Shown piece by piece: positions 44,886-57,937 of a stretch of 64,000 nucleotides of DNA (position 1 is the first letter of the stretch; every line of letters begins with the position of its first letter). The stretch spans positions 1 through 64,000 of the forward strand of contig NZ_PGUW01000010.1 in NCBI RefSeq assembly GCF_002863565.1. Direction: 5' to 3'. Source of the DNA: Bacillus sp. V5-8f (GTDB lineage: Bacteria; Bacillota; Bacilli; Bacillales; DSM-1321). The position numbers and the translations under genes are program-made. The notes beneath the pieces are model-generated. The model had not been told where the DNA came from. It did no database searches and saw nothing but the letters and a program-made list of their open reading frames with translations.

Positions 44886-45033
44886 GGAATGGGTAAAAGA
44901 TTAGTCGAATTAATATTAAATGTAGGGCTTTACTTATTAGGTAAGGCTCTTTTTTTTTTTTAATAAACAATTAACTTAGATTTCTGTATACATATTCAGC
45001 TTAGTTTCGTTATAAATGATGAAAGGAGTGAAA

Positions 45034-45522
45034 ATGGTGCAGCCCTCGAATGAAGAAATAACAAGATTATCAAATGAAATATTTCAAAAGCTATGCTCGA
45101 TGGGGGCTAATCCTCAAGATGCTAAGGAAATTGTTCAAGAATCTTTATATCGTGGTTTCTTGAACATAGAAGGTATAAACGCAGGGTCATTTAGGTCTTG
45201 GCTTTACAGAGTTTCCATTAATCAATATTACGATATGTATAGGAAAAATAAACGTTTTACAATCATGGAGTTTGAAGATAATCATATCTCTGAAGAAAAT
45301 CATCCAGAAGATATGTTAATTAAACAAGAAGATAAAGAAGAATATGAAAAAGTATTAGAAAGATTAAAGCCGATTGAAAAAGCATTAATCAAAATGAAAT
45401 ACGAAGAGGATTATTCCTATAAAGAGATTGCTGGTCATCTAGATTTAAAAGAATCTAATGTTAAAACCTATTTGTATCGTGCAAGGAAGAAACTTGCAGG
45501 AATATTAAGGAGGGATATTTAA
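45034..45522 (+). CDS. ECF-type RNA polymerase sigma factor
   Basis: A 162-residue sigma70-family factor. Region 2 (NPQDAKEIVQESLYRGFLN, then FRSWLYRVSINQYYDMYRK) and region 4 (ALIKMKYEEDYSYKEIAGHLDLKESNVKTYLYRARKKL) are complete. AAAGGAG lies six bases before ATG 45034. The stop overlaps the start of the membrane anti-sigma gene, the typical arrangement for a cell-envelope-stress-responding pair. The target promoter is not obvious. Confidence 0.88.
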   Translation: MVQPSNEEITRLSNEIFQKLCSMGANPQDAKEIVQESLYRGFLNIEGINAGSFRSWLYRVSINQYYDMYRKNKRFTIMEFEDNHISEENHPEDMLIKQEDKEEYEKVLERLKPIEKALIKMKYEEDYSYKEIAGHLDLKESNVKTYLYRARKKLAGILRRDI

Positions 45523-46469
45523 TGACAAATAAACCGTTTAAACCAGGAGATATTGAGGGAATCGTTAAAAATGCTAAAAGGAAAAGTATAAAAAGGAACA
45601 TAATAATTACAACTCTTTTAATAATTATACTTGGATTTATTGCGATTATAGGTAATGGTGTAATAGTAAGTTGGGCATTTAATAAAGCTTCTGAAGGTAA
45701 CGAATTGCTATATGAAATTTCAGAACCAAATGTGGTTATTGGTCAAGCTAAACTTAGTTCAGGAATATTATCAGGAGAGTATATCTATCAAAAATACAAA
45801 TTGATTGAAGATAAAGTGGTCCCGTGGGGAACGGAACAAAAAGCCTTTAATGCTTTAGGTAAGAACACCCCTTCAGCCAAATATGATAGCGTTAGCAGCG
45901 GAGAAACTAAACAAGGAATACGATATTATAATCCAACTAACGGACAAAGAATGATGTTATTTTATCACCCATGGCTTGAATATAAAACAATTCAGAACGA
46001 TCTATCATTGATTGAAAAAGCACCTAGCGATGCAGTGATGGAAGTGGCTATCTCGTTTGATAGACCATTTTCAGTTAATGAGATTCAAAAGTTTCTTAAT
46101 TTAAGAAAAAAAATTACTTGGTATTGGGTAAATGATTATTATAAAAATGATAAGAAAAATTTACAAGGGCTACATGAAACGGGTGATTCTGCTTCACTAG
46201 TTTATGGTTTTAATGCTACTGCTGCTGGTGGAGATGGAGACACTCTAGGTCAAAACGAAGATGATTATATCGCAATCTTAACGAAATTAAAGGGTCTAGG
46301 AAGTTATGATTATATTGTAGACCGACTTCTTGAAACTGAAAAAGAAAATAGAAATGATGGACTAATACTTGGAGTAGTTGTGACAGGAACAAAAGATGAG
46401 TTGTTAAAACTAAAAGAAGATAAACATATTAGGGCAATATCATTAGGAGCAGTTGCAACAGATTTTTAA
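45522..46469 (+). CDS. Membrane anti-sigma factor (Sigma_reg_N/C-type)
   Basis: A 315-residue protein: a cytoplasmic N-terminus rich in Lys/Arg (residues 1-27), one membrane helix (about 28-53) and a long extracytoplasmic domain. The extracytoplasmic part (FYHPWLEYKTIQNDL, AISFDRPFSVNEIQKFL, LGVVVTGTKDELLKL) looks like the anti-sigma regulators of Bacillus ECF factors. It presumably holds the sigma factor at the membrane until a surface signal is sensed. It starts within the sigma stop region. Confidence 0.8.
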   Translation: MTNKPFKPGDIEGIVKNAKRKSIKRNIIITTLLIIILGFIAIIGNGVIVSWAFNKASEGNELLYEISEPNVVIGQAKLSSGILSGEYIYQKYKLIEDKVVPWGTEQKAFNALGKNTPSAKYDSVSSGETKQGIRYYNPTNGQRMMLFYHPWLEYKTIQNDLSLIEKAPSDAVMEVAISFDRPFSVNEIQKFLNLRKKITWYWVNDYYKNDKKNLQGLHETGDSASLVYGFNATAAGGDGDTLGQNEDDYIAILTKLKGLGSYDYIVDRLLETEKENRNDGLILGVVVTGTKDELLKLKEDKHIRAISLGAVATDF

Positions 46470-50064: not shown

Positions 50065-50316
50065 TGGGGATGCCCAGTCAGTATGGCTTGGCTTTAAATG
50101 ATAGATGAATGAAGGAATACATAGAGAAGATTTGTTTGTGAAACTATAATCCAGGTGCTTTGTTTGGGATTCGGTGCTGAAATTCGCAGTTCTTTTTTAT
50201 CTCAAGCTATTGGGACAGTTAAGTAGAACAAGTTACAAGCACTATATAGACTTACAGCCTTTTTACTTCGTTTGAACTTAGTCACGGAAGGGTAAAATTA
50301 ATATTGAGGTGAAAAA

Positions 50317-50628
50317 ATGAAAGTTACTATAACCAAAGATGCAAATCAGCAGCTAATACATGCACTTGGTGCGGAACCAACCATTAGGATTAATCAAATC
50401 CAAACCAGTGGTTGAGGAGCCACGTATGTGTATGAACTTGCTCAGGTTGAGCAGGTAAACAATGATGAGGTATTTAAAGTCGATGAAATTACAATTTTAA
50501 TAGACCCACTGGTAATTAACCATCTGGATGGAGATATAGTGATCGACCATAAAAGTAATTATGGGTTCATTCTTAAAAATAGTTATGAGATCTTAACCTT
50601 TGGGATGAAATTAATTAAAAATTTTTAA
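50317..50628 (+). CDS. HesB-like iron-sulfur biosynthesis-family protein with in-frame TGA
   Basis: From ATG 50317 (behind TTGAGGTG) the frame encodes a HesB/YadR-like protein of 103 codons. Codon 33 (50413-50415) is TGA in the context TSG-TGA-GATYVYELA, where homologues are expected to have Cys. The rest, with NDEVFKVDEITILIDP and HKSNYGFILKN, is intact to TAA 50628. A hairpin (8-bp stem at 50437-50444/50448-50455, loop GGT) begins 21 bases after the TGA. It is either a selenoprotein with a bacterial SECIS element or a recent nonsense mutation. Nothing in the window encodes selenocysteine machinery. Confidence 0.6.
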
Positions 50629-50854
50629 AGCCAAATAAATGTAATAAAGCCACTGTATTCAAAAGATGAACGATACCCAGAATAATGGACATTTATAAAA
50701 AAGTCCCCTATTCTGGGTTTTTCTATGTCTATATACTCATTTTCCTTAACAAAATGAAAAGAGATTCATTTCTTATAACTATTTATACTATTTACATGGT
50801 AAATTTGTATATAACCATACTTTTTTACTGTTTCGTGCCACAAGCATATTTTGC

Positions 50855-50877
50855 TATTATTTGTGTAAGCGTTAACA
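50855..50877 (+). promoter_or_regulatory. Extended -10 promoter element and perfect cre box before the flavin reductase
   Basis: TGCTATTAT gives an extended -10 (TATTAT 50855-50860). TGTAAGCGTTAACA at 50864-50877 matches the cre consensus at all fixed positions and would cover the start of transcription. It is nearly identical to the cre at 3036. Confidence 0.7.
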
Positions 50878-50899
50878 ATTTGTTAAAGGAGAGAAAATT

Positions 50900-51361
50900 A
50901 TGGATTCAAGAGAATTGAGAAACTGTATGGGACATTTCGCTACGGGTGTAACTGTTATAACATGTGATACGGAAGATGGAACTCATGGCATAACCGCAAA
51001 TTCTTTTACTTCTGTTTCACTTGATCCACCGCTCGTTTTAGTTTCTATAGACAGAAAAGCGAAAGCACTTCAACATTTAAAAAATAATAATTTCACTGTG
51101 AATATCTTAAAGGAGGATCAAGAGGATATCGCTATGCATTTTGCTGGCCGCCCGCTTGATGAACCTACTTTTCAATTGCAAAAAGGTAATCTTTCGACCA
51201 GGTTGAAGGATACCCTTGCTTATGTGGAATGTGAACCATGGGCCGAGTATGATGGTGGGGACCATGTTCTATATGTGGGTAAAGTGAGTGATTTTACGTA
51301 TAATCCTGGTCGCCCGCTTGCCTACTATTGCGGCAAATTTTCGGACGTTTTACCAAAATGA
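50900..51361 (+). CDS. pheA2: Flavin reductase of a two-component monooxygenase (PheA2/HpaC-like)
   Basis: A 153-residue flavin-reductase-like split-barrel protein that uses NADH to supply FADH2 to a partner monooxygenase. It begins RELRNCMGHFATGVTVIT, has GITANSFTSVSLDPPLVLVS for flavin binding and ends with the H-x-L-Y-V-G motif (DHVLYVGKV). AAAGGAGAG precedes ATG 50900. Its partner oxygenase is two genes downstream at 53547; the sensor/regulator gene lies between. It is controlled by a cre box and probably by that regulator. Confidence 0.9.
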   Translation: MDSRELRNCMGHFATGVTVITCDTEDGTHGITANSFTSVSLDPPLVLVSIDRKAKALQHLKNNNFTVNILKEDQEDIAMHFAGRPLDEPTFQLQKGNLSTRLKDTLAYVECEPWAEYDGGDHVLYVGKVSDFTYNPGRPLAYYCGKFSDVLPK

Positions 51362-51402: not shown

Positions 51403-53202
51403 ATGAAAGCTCATAAGTTACAATTTGATCGTTTAATAGATACTAATCCCCGTACTGGAGTAATAAAGTTTAGTGATAGAAGAATGGCCCTGGTGTCTGT
51501 AGAGGCACTGGGCATTCTACGGAGAGATTTGGTGAATACCCTGAGCATGGAGAGAGCTAAAGGGTTTCTCATGCGTTATGGATGGGCATGCGGATACAAG
51601 GATGGACAAACTTTAGAAAAAATGTATGAATGGGATTCGCAAAAGGAATTATTTTTGGCAGGTCCATATCTTCATACTTTAGAGGGAATCGTTACAGTGG
51701 AGCCTGATATACTAGAGCTTAATGAGGACACTCTTCATTTTACCGGGATATGGAGGAATTCATTTGAAGCGGTTGAACATATCAATCATTTTGGTCACAG
51801 CAGCGATCCTGTATGCTGGATTCTGATCGGATATGCCAGCGGCTATTTAACCAGAGTATTTGGAAAAGAAGTGCTTGTATATGAAGAATCATGCCAAGGA
51901 AAGGGAGACGATCATTGTTACTTTGTAGCCAAAACCTATGATCCACGTGATGAACGGCATAAGCAGGACTTACGTTATTACAAGTCTGAAACATTACTAT
52001 CAGAATTAGATCGGGTGTATAAGGAAGTTAGAGAACTCAACGAGAACATAATAGAGTCCGAGCGGGTTCAAAACGAATTGACAGATATGCTGCTTGAAGA
52101 TAAAAATGTGTCAGAAACGGTTGGATTAATATCAAATATTGTTCAAAAAAGTATTGTTATAGATTCTTTTCATAAGCAGATGGATAGCTGTTTCAAGTCC
52201 ACTATAGATATGGAAACGTATGAGAGATGGATCAAAAGTGAGGGCCGGTATGAAGCGTTAGATACATACATTGATACATTCCCCATCCGGACTCATGATG
52301 TGAACCTAGGAAGAATGGTTGTCATCGGTGATAAACCACTTAGTAAAAGGGAACAAATGATTATAAATAGATCAGTTACTGTATGTACTGTTCAATTGTA
52401 TCACCAGAGGAAAATCACGCAATCTATATGGAGAAAACGGGAGGATTTCTTTGATGAATTATTAAACAACAAAATTGATGAAAACACTCTTCAACGGCAT
52501 ATGCCTGTATTTGACTTTGATCCCCAGGAACCAAACCGCATCCTCACATTGAAGATAGAACCTTTTGATAATAAGAAAGATATTCTTCAATACATAGGTT
52601 TAAATTATCCAGATATTGACGCTTTCATAAAAGATCAATATATCGTTCTTGTATTAACAGAGAAAGAAATTGAGATAGAAACCTTTACAACGAAACTCCA
52701 GAAAGTTATTCAGGAAGAATTCAAACATATAAAAACCTATATTAGTGTCGGGCGCATAGCAAAAAATCTCAAAGATTTAGCAAAAAGCTATAAAGACGCA
52801 TGCCGCATATGTGATTTTATACAGCTTGCCTATCCCACTGACAGCAGGGCTTCTTATTACGAAGAATTGGAACCTGTCATTATGTTCCTTAAAGGGATCG
52901 ATCAGGAGGAATTGATTGATTTTTGTAAAGAAACCATCGGTAAATTGGTCGAATATGACGATACAAACCAAGGAAATTTAGTTATTACATTGAAGTCTTA
53001 TTTGGATCATAACGGGAATCTTCAGCAAACTGCAGATGACCTGCATCTTTCCATTGCAGGTTTGCGTTACCGCATAGAAAAGATAGAATCTTTTTGCAAA
53101 GCTGACTTAAAAACGGGAACTGGACGTTTTAAATACCAGTTGGCTATTCGCATTTATTTCGCGATGCAAATCATTAACAATAGACCAGCTTTGACAACCT
53201 AA
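51403..53202 (+). CDS. Phenol-sensing regulator: XylR_N + V4R sensor fused to PucR-type output
   Basis: A 599-residue protein. Residues 1-180 are the XylR-N/V4R sensor of DmpR/MopR. The MopR zinc ligands are all present at exact spacing: Cys138, Glu161, Cys164 and Cys172 (EESCQGKGDDHC). His91 (YLHTLEG) and Trp117 (GIW) fit the phenol-OH-binding residues. A coiled-coil linker follows (about 185-235). There is no sigma54 AAA+ domain; the rest is a PucR/CdaR-type regulator ending in a helix-turn-helix (NGNLQQTADDLHLSIAGLRYRI, about 540-565). ATG 51403 lies nine bases after GAGGGGAG. It likely activates the flanking hydroxylase genes on phenol. Confidence 0.85.
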   Translation: MKAHKLQFDRLIDTNPRTGVIKFSDRRMALVSVEALGILRRDLVNTLSMERAKGFLMRYGWACGYKDGQTLEKMYEWDSQKELFLAGPYLHTLEGIVTVEPDILELNEDTLHFTGIWRNSFEAVEHINHFGHSSDPVCWILIGYASGYLTRVFGKEVLVYEESCQGKGDDHCYFVAKTYDPRDERHKQDLRYYKSETLLSELDRVYKEVRELNENIIESERVQNELTDMLLEDKNVSETVGLISNIVQKSIVIDSFHKQMDSCFKSTIDMETYERWIKSEGRYEALDTYIDTFPIRTHDVNLGRMVVIGDKPLSKREQMIINRSVTVCTVQLYHQRKITQSIWRKREDFFDELLNNKIDENTLQRHMPVFDFDPQEPNRILTLKIEPFDNKKDILQYIGLNYPDIDAFIKDQYIVLVLTEKEIEIETFTTKLQKVIQEEFKHIKTYISVGRIAKNLKDLAKSYKDACRICDFIQLAYPTDSRASYYEELEPVIMFLKGIDQEELIDFCKETIGKLVEYDDTNQGNLVITLKSYLDHNGNLQQTADDLHLSIAGLRYRIEKIESFCKADLKTGTGRFKYQLAIRIYFAMQIINNRPALTT

Positions 53203-53510
53203 ACTTCTAATCATTTTAAAACAAGAGTTCGGATATTTTTACTGCTAGGTTTATAACGTTTTGTAAAGATCATGAAATGAAGCGGCTTCCATTGCTTCTT
53301 TAGTGGTCTTTTTTTAATGATCCATTCAATTTTTCAAGGATATCCGCTTAAACCAATCTGTAAAAACAATAGGCTGTTTCTTATAGTGATTTCCATACGA
53401 ATCATTACTAAAGAGTCTAATACCGCAAAAACATGAAATAGAACGATATTTGTCAGTATATTTTTGCAGTTCAAAAAATTTAAAAAACAATTCATAATAA
53501 AAATATGAAA

Positions 53511-53524
53511 TGAAAGCGCTTCAA
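53511..53524 (+). promoter_or_regulatory. cre-like box before the phenol hydroxylase gene
   Basis: TGAAAGCGCTTCAA matches 12 of 14 cre positions. Immediately upstream TTCATA (53491-53496) and TATGAA (53504-53509) form an inverted repeat. The gap 53203-53490 holds no gene. Confidence 0.4.
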
Positions 53525-53546
53525 AATTATTCAAGGAGGCTAGAAA

Positions 53547-55094
53547 ATGAAAGTTGATCAAAAAGTATTAACAAAACGGCCATTAACTGGACAAGAATAT
53601 TTGGAAAGCCTGAGAGACGGCCGAGAGATTTGGATTCATGGTGAGAAGGTGGAAGACGTTACCACTCATCCGGCTTTCCGGAATTCTGCACGCTCCATTG
53701 CAAGGCTTTATGATGCTTTGCATGATGAAAAAACGAAGGATATTCTAACAGTGCCAACTGATACAGGAAATGGAGGTTATACCCAAAAGTTCTTCCAATT
53801 TGATCAAAGTGCCGAGGATCTGTTGAAATCCCGTAATGCAATCGCACAATGGGCCAAATTAACATATGGGCAAATGGGCAGATCACCGGATTATAAAGCC
53901 GCCTTCCTGGCAACGCTCGGCGCAGACCCTGATTACTATGCGCCATATCAAGATAATGCAAGAAGATGGTATAAGGAAGCTCAGGAAAACAATTGGTTTT
54001 TCAACCATGCCATCATCAACCCGCCGGTAGACCGACATAAACCTTTGGAAGCCGTATCAGATATTTTTATTAGGGCGGTAGGGGAAACCGAGGAAGGAGT
54101 AATTGTAAGCGGCGCGAAGATGGTTGCCACCGGATCGGCCCTCACGAATTACAACTTTGTCGCCCACTATGGTGCAGCTCCAATCAAGAAAGAGGAATTT
54201 GCCCTTTGCTTTATAGCACCAATGAATACTCCAGGTGTCAAGCTTGTCAGCCGAGCTTCGTATGAAATGAACGCGGCCGTAATGGGCAGTCCATTCGACT
54301 ACCCTTTAAGCAGCAGGTTCGATGAAAATGATGCTGTTCTTATCTTTGATGAAGCTTTGATTCCATGGGAAAATATCTTGATTTATAAAGACGTCGAGAA
54401 AATCAATAATTTCTTTGCTGAAACTGGTTTCCTAAATCGCTTTACATTCCATGGAGTGACACGACTAGCCGTCAAGCTGGATTTTGTGTCAGGTTTACTT
54501 TTAAAAGCTGTAAAGGTGAATGGCACAGATCAATTCCGAGGAGTACAGGTTAACGTAGGAGAAGTTTTGGCATGGAAGAATATGTTTTGGGCTTTAAGTG
54601 ATGCTATGGCACTAAACCCTAACGAGGGAAGAAATGGAACAGTTCTACCAAATTTAAATTATGGATTAGCCTATAGGGTCTTCATGTCAGAGGGCTGGCC
54701 AAAGGTAAAAGAAATCATTGAAAACGTGGTGGCAGGCAGTTTGATTGTCCAGCCTTCCAGCTCACGCGACTTTAAAAATCCGGAGCTGCGTCCTTTTCTT
54801 GATAAGCTGTACCGCGGGGCCAATGGTGTTGAGTCAGTGGACAAGATCAAGCTTATCAAGCTGCTCTGGGATGTTGTAGGTACGGAATACGGCGGAAGGC
54901 ATGAACTGTATGAACGGAATTATTCAGGAAACCATGAAAATATTCGCCTTGAGAACCTGATCGTTGCAAATCAGAATGGGCAAGCGGCTGAGTTTGAGAA
55001 ATTCGTGGAAGAATGCCTAAGCGACTATGACCTGAACGGGTGGACAAATGATACATGGATCAATCCGGATGATATCAACTATTTTGCTAAATAA
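53547..55094 (+). CDS. pheA1: FAD-dependent phenol / 4-hydroxyphenylacetate monooxygenase, oxygenase component
   Basis: A 515-residue HpaB/PheA1-family enzyme using FADH2 and O2 to hydroxylate phenols ortho to the OH, giving catechols. Family segments include LTGQEYLESLRDGREIWIHG at the start, a HAIINPPVDRHKP loop, GVIVSGAKMVATGSALTNYN for flavin binding and GTEYGGRHELYERNYSGNHE near the end. AAGGAGG precedes ATG 53547. The downstream catechol ortho-cleavage genes and the phenol-sensor regulator favour phenol over hydroxyphenylacetate. FADH2 comes from the reductase at 50900 and FAD from the synthetase at 55243. Confidence 0.88.
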   Translation: MKVDQKVLTKRPLTGQEYLESLRDGREIWIHGEKVEDVTTHPAFRNSARSIARLYDALHDEKTKDILTVPTDTGNGGYTQKFFQFDQSAEDLLKSRNAIAQWAKLTYGQMGRSPDYKAAFLATLGADPDYYAPYQDNARRWYKEAQENNWFFNHAIINPPVDRHKPLEAVSDIFIRAVGETEEGVIVSGAKMVATGSALTNYNFVAHYGAAPIKKEEFALCFIAPMNTPGVKLVSRASYEMNAAVMGSPFDYPLSSRFDENDAVLIFDEALIPWENILIYKDVEKINNFFAETGFLNRFTFHGVTRLAVKLDFVSGLLLKAVKVNGTDQFRGVQVNVGEVLAWKNMFWALSDAMALNPNEGRNGTVLPNLNYGLAYRVFMSEGWPKVKEIIENVVAGSLIVQPSSSRDFKNPELRPFLDKLYRGANGVESVDKIKLIKLLWDVVGTEYGGRHELYERNYSGNHENIRLENLIVANQNGQAAEFEKFVEECLSDYDLNGWTNDTWINPDDINYFAK

Positions 55095-55242: not shown

Positions 55243-55788
55243 ATGAAAGTAATCAGAAATGGAATATTGTCGCTTAAACACTCTGTTCTAACTATCGGTG
55301 CTTTTGATGGCATCCACCTTGGACACCAGTCACTAATAGCCAAAACTGTGAATCGTGCTCGTGAATTAGATGTGCCGTCTGTCGTCTATACATTTGATCC
55401 ACCGCCCCGAGTGTATTTCCAAAAGCAAATGTTGTTGACTACTGTTCAAGAAAAGCTGGTTTTCCTCCGAAAACTGGGGGTGGATTATACAGTCATAGCT
55501 AACTTTGACACTTACTTTCTTTCAAAAAGTGCAGCGGAATTTATTGAAGAGTTGAAGAGTTTGGCACCCGATGAGATATGGATAGGCCCAGACTTTCAGT
55601 TCGGGAAAGGCAAGACAGGTTCGATAAAAGATCTTTCAGAACAGTTTAACACCTATACATTTCCGGTTGTGAAGTGCTCCAGGGGGGAAATCATTTCCTC
55701 CACCCGCATTAGGAAATTGCTTGGAAATCAGCAACAACAGCTTGCACATGAGCTGCTCGGAAGAAACAGGTTACAGAAAATCCATTAG
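55243..55788 (+). CDS. Single-domain FAD synthetase (RibF N-domain-like)
   Basis: A 181-residue FMN adenylyltransferase. The nucleotidyl-transfer motif FDGIHLGHQ and the C-terminal ISSTRIRKLL signature are present. The riboflavin-kinase half of normal RibF (about 130 residues) is absent. It should make FAD from FMN. Placed right after the FAD-dependent phenol hydroxylase, it probably boosts FAD for that enzyme. GGAGG lies about nine bases before ATG 55243. A compact open frame continues downstream in another frame. Confidence 0.85.
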   Translation: MKVIRNGILSLKHSVLTIGAFDGIHLGHQSLIAKTVNRARELDVPSVVYTFDPPPRVYFQKQMLLTTVQEKLVFLRKLGVDYTVIANFDTYFLSKSAAEFIEELKSLAPDEIWIGPDFQFGKGKTGSIKDLSEQFNTYTFPVVKCSRGEIISSTRIRKLLGNQQQQLAHELLGRNRLQKIH

Positions 55789-56153: not shown

Positions 56154-56960
56154 CTAATACTGCGCTGAGTTATAAGCAGCGCTAATAGTCCGGCTGATTT
56201 TTTCTGCAGTTTCAAATAAGAGTGGGAGAAATTCTTCTCGGACCGTGTTTTCACTAATACGACCGGCGTGGGCGGAACAGTTAATCGCAGCTATTACTTT
56301 TCCTTCTCCATTTTGGATTGGTACAGCGATGGAACGGAGTCCTTCTTCGAATTGCTGGTCAACACCGCCCCACCCATTTTCCTGAACGGTTGCTAACACC
56401 TTTTTTAATTGTTCTTTATCCGTGATGGTATTGTTTGTAAACCGTTTGAAGCTCACTTTGTTTAAATAATCTTCAAGTTCGGCCTTTGGTAAAAATGCCA
56501 GCAATACATGTCCCATTGATGTGGCATAGGCGGGAAGGCGGGATCCGACTTCGAGATTGATCGTCATAATCCTTTTTGTATGAACACGAGCGACATATAA
56601 AATATCGGTACCATCCAGAATCGAAATCGAGCAGGATTCACCCGTTTTTGCGACAAATTCCCTCATGATCGGTTGGGCGATGTTCCATATGTTTTTGGAG
56701 GAGATATATGCATAGCCCAACGTAAGGATGCGAGCTGTCAGTGAGAAACTGCCATTGTTTGATTCTACGAAGCCCAAGTATTCGAGGGTGAGCAGCATTC
56801 TTCTTGCAGTCGGTCTGCTAAGCCCGGTAATCTTAGCTGCGTCACTAATAGTGAGCGAAGGTGTTTCCTGGGAAAAAGCCTGAATCACTTTGAGTCCGCG
56901 GTCAAGGGATTGAATATAATCACCAGATTGTTCGAAATTGTCGGAGTTTTGTATTGACAA
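56154..56960 (-). CDS. IclR-family transcriptional regulator
   Basis: A 268-residue regulator. The N-terminal winged helix (YIQSLDRGLKVIQAF, TISDAAKITGLSRPTARRML) is followed by the IclR effector domain (VARVHTKRIMTINLEVGSRLPAYATSMGHVLLA, then GVDQQFEEGLRSIAVPIQ). This matches CatR/PcaR/PcaU-type regulators of beta-ketoadipate pathways. TTG 56960 is used, eight bases after GGAGG. It is divergent from the catechol dioxygenase gene, with a palindrome between them that also recurs before the next operon. The effector is perhaps muconate or beta-ketoadipate. Confidence 0.9.
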   Translation of the reverse strand: MSIQNSDNFEQSGDYIQSLDRGLKVIQAFSQETPSLTISDAAKITGLSRPTARRMLLTLEYLGFVESNNGSFSLTARILTLGYAYISSKNIWNIAQPIMREFVAKTGESCSISILDGTDILYVARVHTKRIMTINLEVGSRLPAYATSMGHVLLAFLPKAELEDYLNKVSFKRFTNNTITDKEQLKKVLATVQENGWGGVDQQFEEGLRSIAVPIQNGEGKVIAAINCSAHAGRISENTVREEFLPLLFETAEKISRTISAAYNSAQY

Positions 56961-57108: not shown

Positions 57109-57166
57109 TAACTTTATTGTGCCTCAGCAACTATTTTAAACTAGTAAAAAATAGGAGGAATTGATG

Positions 57167-57937
57167 ATGGTAGAAACTCAAGTAAAGAATCAGCGTGTGT
57201 TGGAAGTGTACGAAAGCTTTGTCAAACACTTGAAAAACTTTTTGGATGAACAGCAGCTTAACCATGAAGAGTACTCGAATTTCGTGAAATGGGCAGACCG
57301 TCTTGGTCGAAGCGGTGAAGTTCCCCTGTTTTTAGATGTGTTCGTTGAAACCCATGTACTTGAATCCAAGTACAAGGATGCGCCTGGAACTCAGCCATCA
57401 CTGCTTGGGCCATACTTTGTGGAAGGATCCCAGTTATTGGAACAAAAACCATTTGTCATTCCGCAGCGTCCGGATGAAGCGGGAGATAAGCTAATTTTTA
57501 GGGGCAATGTTACCTCAGTGGATGGAAAGCCATTAGCCAATACAAAGGTGGAATGGTGGCAGGATGATAATGACGGATTATATTCAAATTTCGACTCACC
57601 TGCACCTGCATTTAACCTTAGAGGCCATTTCTATACAGATGAGAATGGGGATTTTGAGGTCCATTCCATCGTTCCGATTCCTTATCAGATTCCGACGAAT
57701 GGGCCGACTGGCGAGTTCGTTCGTGCGGCAGGTTACCATGCGTACCGCCCGGCTCATATTCATATGATGTTTATCCAGGAAGGGTATGAAACACTGATTA
57801 CCCAAGTGTTCTTTGAAGGAGATCAGTGGCTGGAAACTGATGTAGCGAAGGGTGTCCGTTCTTCATTATTAACCAAGCTCCATCAAGTTGGTGACCACAA
57901 AGAAGCTTCACTGGATTTCGTCCTTCGCCCTTTATAA
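57167..57937 (+). CDS. catA: Catechol 1,2-dioxygenase (intradiol)
   Basis: A 256-residue non-haem Fe(III) dioxygenase that cleaves catechol to cis,cis-muconate. The iron ligands are Tyr139 (DGLYSNF), Tyr173 (VPIPYQIP), His197 and His199 (RPAHIHM), with the second Tyr-to-His spacing as in known CatA. An N-terminal helical linker domain (residues 8-75) is typical of catechol-type enzymes. Muconate cycloisomerase downstream supports catechol rather than hydroxyquinol. The start is ATG 57167 (eight bases after GGAGG); ATG 57164 is possible. Confidence 0.9.
   Translation: MVETQVKNQRVLEVYESFVKHLKNFLDEQQLNHEEYSNFVKWADRLGRSGEVPLFLDVFVETHVLESKYKDAPGTQPSLLGPYFVEGSQLLEQKPFVIPQRPDEAGDKLIFRGNVTSVDGKPLANTKVEWWQDDNDGLYSNFDSPAPAFNLRGHFYTDENGDFEVHSIVPIPYQIPTNGPTGEFVRAAGYHAYRPAHIHMMFIQEGYETLITQVFFEGDQWLETDVAKGVRSSLLTKLHQVGDHKEASLDFVLRPL

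Follow-up and report, generated by a model that had tools for sequence, protein, structure and literature searches.

How does a protein with the phenol-sensing half of a sigma54 activator control genes when its other half comes from a different family? The locus that raises this question lies in Bacillus sp. V5-8f, in a stretch of 64,000 nucleotides (contig NZ_PGUW01000010.1, positions 1 to 64,000) that we call the window. The regulator gene sits there between the genes for a flavin reductase and an HpaB-type monooxygenase (Table 1).

Table 1. Features of the regulator locus. Positions are those of the window; domains are given in residues of the regulator.
Feature	Position	Strand	Remarks
Half-site of the flavin reductase-regulator promoter, TTTTTACTGTT	50822..50832	+	TATTAT 22 bp downstream at 50855-50860
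cre-like site (CcpA), TGTAAGCGTTAACA	50864..50877	+	Follows the flavin reductase promoter
Flavin reductase component	50900..51361	+	PF01613, 127 bits; 41 bp upstream of the regulator
Regulator ORF	51403..53202	+	599 aa, ATG start; basis: domain searches and HTH alignment
XylR_N domain	aa 9-106
V4R domain	aa 118-177
Linker	about aa 195-225
GGDEF_2 domain	aa 360-468
HTH_30 domain	aa 526-584
Distal half-site, TACCGCAAAAA	53421..53431	+	Bipartite pattern unique in genome; conserved upstream of HpaB
Proximal half-site, TTTTTGCAGTT	53461..53471	+	Overlaps -35-like TTCAAA (53470-53475)
-10-like CATAAT	53493..53498	+	21 bp after the proximal half-site; 17 bp after TTCAAA
cre-like site (CcpA), TGAAAGCGCTTCAA	53511..53524	+	Follows the HpaB promoter
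HpaB-type monooxygenase, presumed phenol hydroxylase large component	53547..55094	+	PF11794/PF03241
Stand-alone FAD synthetase domain protein	55243..55788	+	PF06574 and overlapping PF01467 only
IclR-family regulator, PcaR/PcaU/PobR-type	56154-56960		Same cluster as the regulator
Intradiol (catechol-type) dioxygenase	57161..57937	+	PF00775/PF04444, NCBIfam

Regulator domains, pocket residues and neighboring genes

Pfam recognized four domains in the regulator, each above its cut-off: XylR_N (E 5.7e-29), V4R (E 9.6e-14), GGDEF_2 (E 2e-6) and HTH_30 (E 6.4e-15). No AAA+ or Sigma54_activat domain was found in the protein by Pfam up to an E value of 1. These matches include the three domains, XylR_N, V4R and HTH_30, for which the sequence-only reading had advised a search, and they bear out its view that the AAA+ module is replaced by a PucR-like region and a helix-turn-helix. 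In phmmer searches against the PDB, residues 7 to 219 aligned to DmpR/CapR (6iy8, E 2.3e-38), and the regulator also matched MopR (5kbe, E 5.8e-37) and PoxR (5fru, E 2.7e-34). Its C-terminal profile matched the solved PucR-type HTHs Rv2242 (9f80, E 7.9e-8) and 3onq (E 5.4e-5). Two NCBIfam models aligned below their cut-offs: the MobR model over residues 13 to 225 (an exception model, with a cut-off of 999), and the model of the sporulation activator AdeR over residues 395 to 584. The homology to DmpR extends beyond the sensor, to residue 219. The region just after the sensor is called the coiled-coil B-linker in the available text of the DmpR paper (PMC7264223), and because the homology reaches into it, the joint between sensor and PucR part lies near residue 220.

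The regulator has the XylR_N and V4R sensor, the His/Trp anchor and the Cys/Glu/Cys/Cys zinc ligands of the NtrC-type phenol regulators, and lacks their AAA+ sigma54-interaction domain. It has the C-terminal HTH_30, usually placed behind GGDEF_2, of the PucR/AdeR/CdaR family. All three parts of the XylR_N-V4R-PucR (PheR-like) form are present, with aromatic oxygenase genes adjoining. By these domain assignments, the regulator is a DmpR/MopR-type sensor (XylR_N-V4R) fused to an AdeR/PucR-type output.

Matches to the four MopR zinc ligands and to the phenol-binding His and Trp had also been claimed, and the phmmer alignment confirmed them. C138, E161, C164 and C172 of the regulator align to MopR C155, E178, C181 and C189, and H91 and W117 align to MopR H106 and W134. 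Among 85 PucR-type rows (window included), whose labels come from similarity to the query and not from a Pfam scan of each row, the four zinc ligands were kept in all 85, and H91 and W117 in 84 each. Near-copies or fragments (L003, L040, L043, L054 and L064) had been dropped before this count. Such conservation argues that the residue matches to MopR are not due to chance. In six sigma54-type rows, H91, E161, C164 and C172 were each present in all six, and W117 and C138 each in five.

The wall of the pocket can be compared in the same way. In the available text of PMC10715001, the MopR ring contacts are F99, P103, V112, V114, F132, Y161, A162, Y165, Y176 and I191, and S166 closes the pocket. 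The regulator has, in the same order, F84, P88, V97, V99, G115, Y144, A145, Y148, V159 and F174, with L149 at S166. The changes from MopR are F132 to G115, Y176 to V159, I191 to F174 and S166 to L149. Judged by alignment to these reported contacts, the regulator's pocket retains the anchor, and part of its wall is altered relative to MopR.

These four wall positions also vary within the family, and the physiological inducer of the same protein could be another phenolic, such as a cresol, a chlorophenol, 4-hydroxyphenylacetate or a lignin phenol. The neighboring monooxygenase points the same way, because its best solved relative is a chlorophenol-4-monooxygenase (642 bits), with 4-hydroxyphenylacetate 3-monooxygenases close behind (618 to 623 bits). 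However, the His/Trp anchor and the zinc ligands are kept, and the intradiol dioxygenase, muconate-cycloisomerase-type enzyme, CoA transferase and thiolase encoded nearby fit a route from phenol through catechol to beta-ketoadipate. We consider an inducer other than phenol rather unlikely.

Phenol is also the substrate that the downstream genes suggest. They encode the intradiol dioxygenase, an alpha/beta hydrolase, a CMD protein, CoA transferase subunits, the muconate-cycloisomerase-type enzyme and the thiolase. Because this set fits the conversion of catechol to beta-ketoadipate, we infer that HpaB acts on phenol and that the HpaB-type monooxygenase is a phenol hydroxylase. The regulator gene had been placed between the two components of a phenol hydroxylase; Pfam upheld the flavin reductase and HpaB on its two sides, and the name phenol hydroxylase comes from the downstream genes. 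No terminator-like site was found between the regulator and hpaB, so read-through is possible.

Several other features of the neighborhood were recorded. Pfam found no riboflavin kinase domain in the FAD synthetase domain protein, relatives of which occur at 26 of 80 related loci, 24 of these also having a monooxygenase relative. A gene for an ECF-type sigma factor adjoins a sigma-regulator (Sigma_reg_N/C) gene at 45016-46469 (+). The HesB-like Fe-S_biosyn ORF at 50317-50628 (+) has one in-frame TGA (50413-50415), scores 38.1 bits against PF01521 with the TGA read as Cys, and is followed by a stable hairpin (56 nt, -19.6 kcal/mol, z -3.17). Genes for SelA, SelB, an AIRS-family (SelD-like) protein and a tRNA-Sec that exceeds the gathering score are present in the genome, so this ORF may encode a selenoprotein. 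A blastn comparison with the near relative L030 matched just the 3' part of the ORF, with the frame shifted.

Promoters and a candidate operator

Upstream of HpaB lies a candidate operator of two inverted half-sites, AACCRCAAAAA-N29-TTTTTRCAGTT, followed by N21 and a sigmaA-like -10. The distance from half-site to half-site is 40 bp. With up to 3 mismatches, the bipartite pattern matched one place in the 4.43-Mb genome, 53421-53471, on both strands because it is an inverted repeat, and the reversed-pattern control matched none. The half-site and -10 without the distal part were not specific (5 genome matches versus 4 for the reversed control, the window matches being near chance). Specificity resides only in the bipartite form. 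The -35/-10 consensus matched 19 times in the region versus 14.2 expected, so a consensus match alone is weak evidence. No good distal half-site was found for the window's flavin reductase promoter.

A sigma54 promoter at the flanking genes was rejected, because a -24/-12 search (TGGCAC-N5-TTGCW, up to 2 mismatches) gave no match in either intergenic region, 50065-50900 or 53203-53546. The genome does encode sigma54. The sequence-only reading had spoken of a sigma54-independent phenol switch. The sigma54-independence of activation is likely, because a sigmaA-like -10 lies at a fixed distance, the operator lies over a poor -35, and the -24/-12 match is absent.

Promoters at which sigmaA depends on an activator usually have a poor -35 with the factor bound over it. 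Protein bound at the proximal half-site, which lies across the -35, can also obstruct polymerase, and the regulator could instead be a phenol-released repressor or a dual regulator. However, TTCAAA is a poor -35, as general knowledge leads one to expect where an activator is needed, AdeR is a sporulation transcriptional activator in NCBIfam, and DmpR and MopR are activators. A repressing or dual role is unlikely, and we prefer an activator.

The window has 8 cre-like matches versus a chance mean of 2.4, and 1 of 100 shuffles had as many. A cre-like match of at least 13 of 14 was present in 17 of 22 orthologous upstream regions; in the window, such matches lie just before both hydroxylase component genes.

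The half-site and -10 were spotted by eye, as TTTTTRCNGTT-21 bp-TANNAT-like -10, among the upstream regions of orthologues, 22 in all. The HpaB regions of this set have the inverted half-site 29 bp further upstream. Fifteen of the 22 regions had a score reached by at most 2 of 200 shuffles, and seven were at or close to the level of shuffles at N21 (flavin reductase of the window and of L030, L035 HpaB, the L036 and L037 regulators, and both L004 regions). The window's flavin reductase region has the proximal half-site only, which fits with N22, and the element is absent from the L035 HpaB promoter.

Because the pattern was derived from these regions, it was tested on loci outside the set. Seven of 10 HpaB promoters there had the proximal half-site and -10, six of the seven also had the distal half-site (L119 did not), and three had neither; three of the seven (L138, L141 and L142) are from the genus of L036, which was used in defining the pattern, and are not fully independent. 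By the shuffle test, six of eight new-locus HpaB regions reached scores matched by 0 to 1 of 300 shuffles, and L125 and L126 failed. Two further HpaB regions had been skipped at first by the alignment filter; L118 has the element and L145 does not. The flavin reductase promoters of the new loci L118, L121 and L122 all had the proximal half-site and -10 and no distal half-site at N29. Flavin reductase promoters generally lack a distal half-site at that spacing, with scores of 0 to 6 of 10 in the new loci.

A blind scan then covered 34 genomes: 16 whose regulator has the recognition helix HLSIAG or YLSIAG, four with NLSIPG, and 14 regulator-free congeners, that is, genomes with no match to the regulator in the genus and family search. 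Fifteen of the 16 [HY]LSIAG genomes have a site with at most 3 mismatches in the 400 nt before HpaB, the exception being G044 (a poor distal half-site, 5 mismatches), and none of the four NLSIPG genomes has one there (best, 7 to 10 mismatches). Nine of the 16 were unread when the pattern was made (G213, G044, G350, G311, G763, G613, G700, G405 and G309), and eight of the nine have the site. In G405, G309 and G200 the site is 11 to 19 kb from the regulator, with HpaB directly downstream of the site, and in G389 a second site precedes an HpaB start on another contig. At up to 2 mismatches, a site was present in 11/16 [HY]LSIAG, 0/4 NLSIPG and 0/14 regulator-free genomes. At exactly 3 mismatches, six of the 14 congeners and one NLSIPG genome (G129, not at HpaB) matched, and the reversed control did too, so 3-mismatch matches alone mean little. 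One 1-mismatch site (G390:C16:10806) is in the upstream region of the regulator itself. Other 2-mismatch sites were not tied to targets (G200:C23, G390:C16:23019, G405:C39 and G309:C89), and three of them resemble terminator hairpins by eye.

The correlation across genomes makes these half-sites the likely DNA site that the regulator reads at HpaB. A correlation would also leave room for another owner, with the XylR_N-PucR protein acting elsewhere, and the gene cluster does contain an IclR-family regulator that could be that owner. However, the element tracks the XylR_N-PucR recognition helix (15 of 16 against 0 of 4), with the HpaB gene present in all 20 genomes, and L018, L032, L033, L036 and L037 have the element at HpaB with no IclR relative at E 1e-10 in their flanks. 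We regard another owner as quite improbable, and take the element as a probable site of the XylR_N-PucR regulator. In distant clades, the same operator gave low scores (raw, unshuffled). A generic inverted-repeat scan of related clades, including Neobacillus, gave a similar geometry at some loci, where shuffles mostly scored equally, and we treat it as no more than a lead.

Distribution of the fused form

In the genus and family search (E <=1e-20), 14 of 43 genomes matched the regulator, as did 21 of 397 genomes of the order sample and 22 of 398 of the class sample (E <=1e-60); these tallies include the window's genome, and some genomes are in both samples. When genome contigs were scanned, 316 stretches matched, of which 315 were confirmed as relatives and 80 kept, and 59 of the 80 were aligned with the window protein. 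Across these 60 proteins, Pfam found XylR_N, V4R and HTH_30 in all 60, GGDEF_2 in 59 and AAA+ in none. The locus had been called a natural domain swap. The XylR_N-V4R/PucR fusion is real, but a recent one-off swap was rejected, because all 59 scanned relatives share the architecture; the PucR-type form is widespread in Bacillota.

In the flanks of the 80 loci, 39 had an HpaB/PheA1 relative, 25 a catechol dioxygenase relative and 53 at least one of the two, as raw counts without a background rate (E <=1e-10 over half of the query, flanks of up to 6 kb with some contigs ending sooner, and some matches only about 30% identical). By the same counting, 22 of the 80 had none of monooxygenase, dioxygenase and flavin reductase. 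In six Clostridia-type members (L049, L050, L056, L058, L068 and L069; Desulfotomaculum, Pelotomaculum and kin), the sensor is kept and none of the sought oxygenase or flavin reductase relatives is nearby. These members may serve anaerobic phenol metabolism.

In a sample of the phylum, XylR_N was present in 7 of 398 genomes, at 11 places. Eight of these ORFs were scanned, leaving out the window's own and two short fragments. Four had a PucR-type output, with HTH_30 present in two of them and the other two truncated behind GGDEF_2; three had a GAF match, their output not being seen, and one had no output. None had AAA+. Elsewhere, in KSB1 (L102:3117-5306), the same XylR_N-V4R sensor is joined to PAS domains and a histidine kinase.

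In an unrooted tree, the six sigma54 rows, the only ones included, grouped as a single clade with 100/100 support amid PucR- and GAF/HK-type rows. Counts of label changes on this tree were set aside, because four rows labelled 'x' are PucR-type (two with HTH_30, two cut off after GGDEF_2). As a tentative view, about which we have considerable doubt, receptors with a PucR output would make up most of the phenol-sensor family and would be its older members, and DmpR, MopR and XylR one lineage that gained a sigma54 output. The Bacillota branch would then act on ordinary sigmaA promoters by way of an inverted operator whose half-sites are widely separated (by 40 bp) and which lies 21 bp before the -10, as a compact sigma54-free phenol switch.

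Proposed mechanism and known systems

The best explanation of the whole, which we hold to be probable, is that the regulator is a one-component phenolic sensor and activator that acts at inverted half-sites on a sigmaA promoter. Phenol or a small phenol would be held between H91 and W117, in a pocket braced by the zinc site (C138, E161, C164 and C172). The ligand-induced change would pass through the linker, and the PucR part would work at the two half-sites. Because the proximal half-site lies over a poor -35, the bound regulator would recruit sigmaA polymerase and not remodel sigma54 polymerase. It would activate hpaB and, probably, the flavin reductase-regulator operon to which its own gene belongs, which would give positive feedback. 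CcpA would repress at the downstream cre sites, and the catechol product would pass to the ortho-cleavage genes at 57-63 kb.

What is new here is the likely operator of an XylR_N-V4R-PucR regulator; a relative, PheR, has been known since 2008. We found no description of the fusion or its operator in the open-licence PMC literature (subscription papers lie outside this scope), as far as the available text goes, and the available parts of PMC2253512 and PMC5847659 do not mention the fusion. Omokoko et al. (2008) described pheR in Geobacillus stearothermophilus DSM6285, where it belongs to the phe operon and shares a transcript with the degradative genes. According to the available text, the sub-domain architecture of PheR differs from those of DmpR and XylR, its function was not tested there, and its PucR part was not named (PMC2590616). 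Like the window regulator, PheR comes from a Gram-positive bacterium and has its gene among those of a phenol hydroxylase operon (PMC2590616). The window regulator offers a mechanism for such a Gram-positive phenol regulator, whose mode stayed open in 2008.

PheR was compared not by its own sequence but through L019, its likely counterpart, which is encoded on a Parageobacillus plasmid. L019 has XylR_N, V4R, GGDEF_2 and HTH_30, and its gene order is that reported for the phe operon (C23O, 4OT, monooxygenase, flavin reductase, ferredoxin-type protein, regulator). However, it shares about 26% identity with the window protein along its length, its operon is of the meta-cleavage type with a different monooxygenase, and the best match to the half-site/-10 pattern at its locus is just 9-10 of 14. 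Closer is Priestia WP_016765997.1 ('XylR N-terminal domain-containing protein'), which is 67% identical and lies on a plasmid in the same flavin reductase-regulator-HpaB neighborhood, with the difference that a GNAT acetyltransferase gene intervenes before HpaB.

The window regulator shares the C-terminal GGDEF_2 and HTH_30 output with the AdeR/CdaR/PucR family, fused here behind XylR_N-V4R, an arrangement that allows a direct test of how V4R passes its signal to an unrelated output. With MopR, DmpR (CapR) and PoxR (5kbe, 6iy8 and 5fru), it shares the XylR_N-V4R sensor, the zinc ligands and the His/Trp anchor. Those proteins carry a sigma54 AAA+ ATPase and a Fis HTH, and the AAA+ domain was found in the DmpR-like control L172; in contrast, the window regulator has a PucR-type output and neither of these. 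Phenol biosensors built on DmpR and MopR need sigma54, whereas the same type of sensor with a sigmaA-type output and a defined candidate operator could be tried in Bacillus and other hosts.
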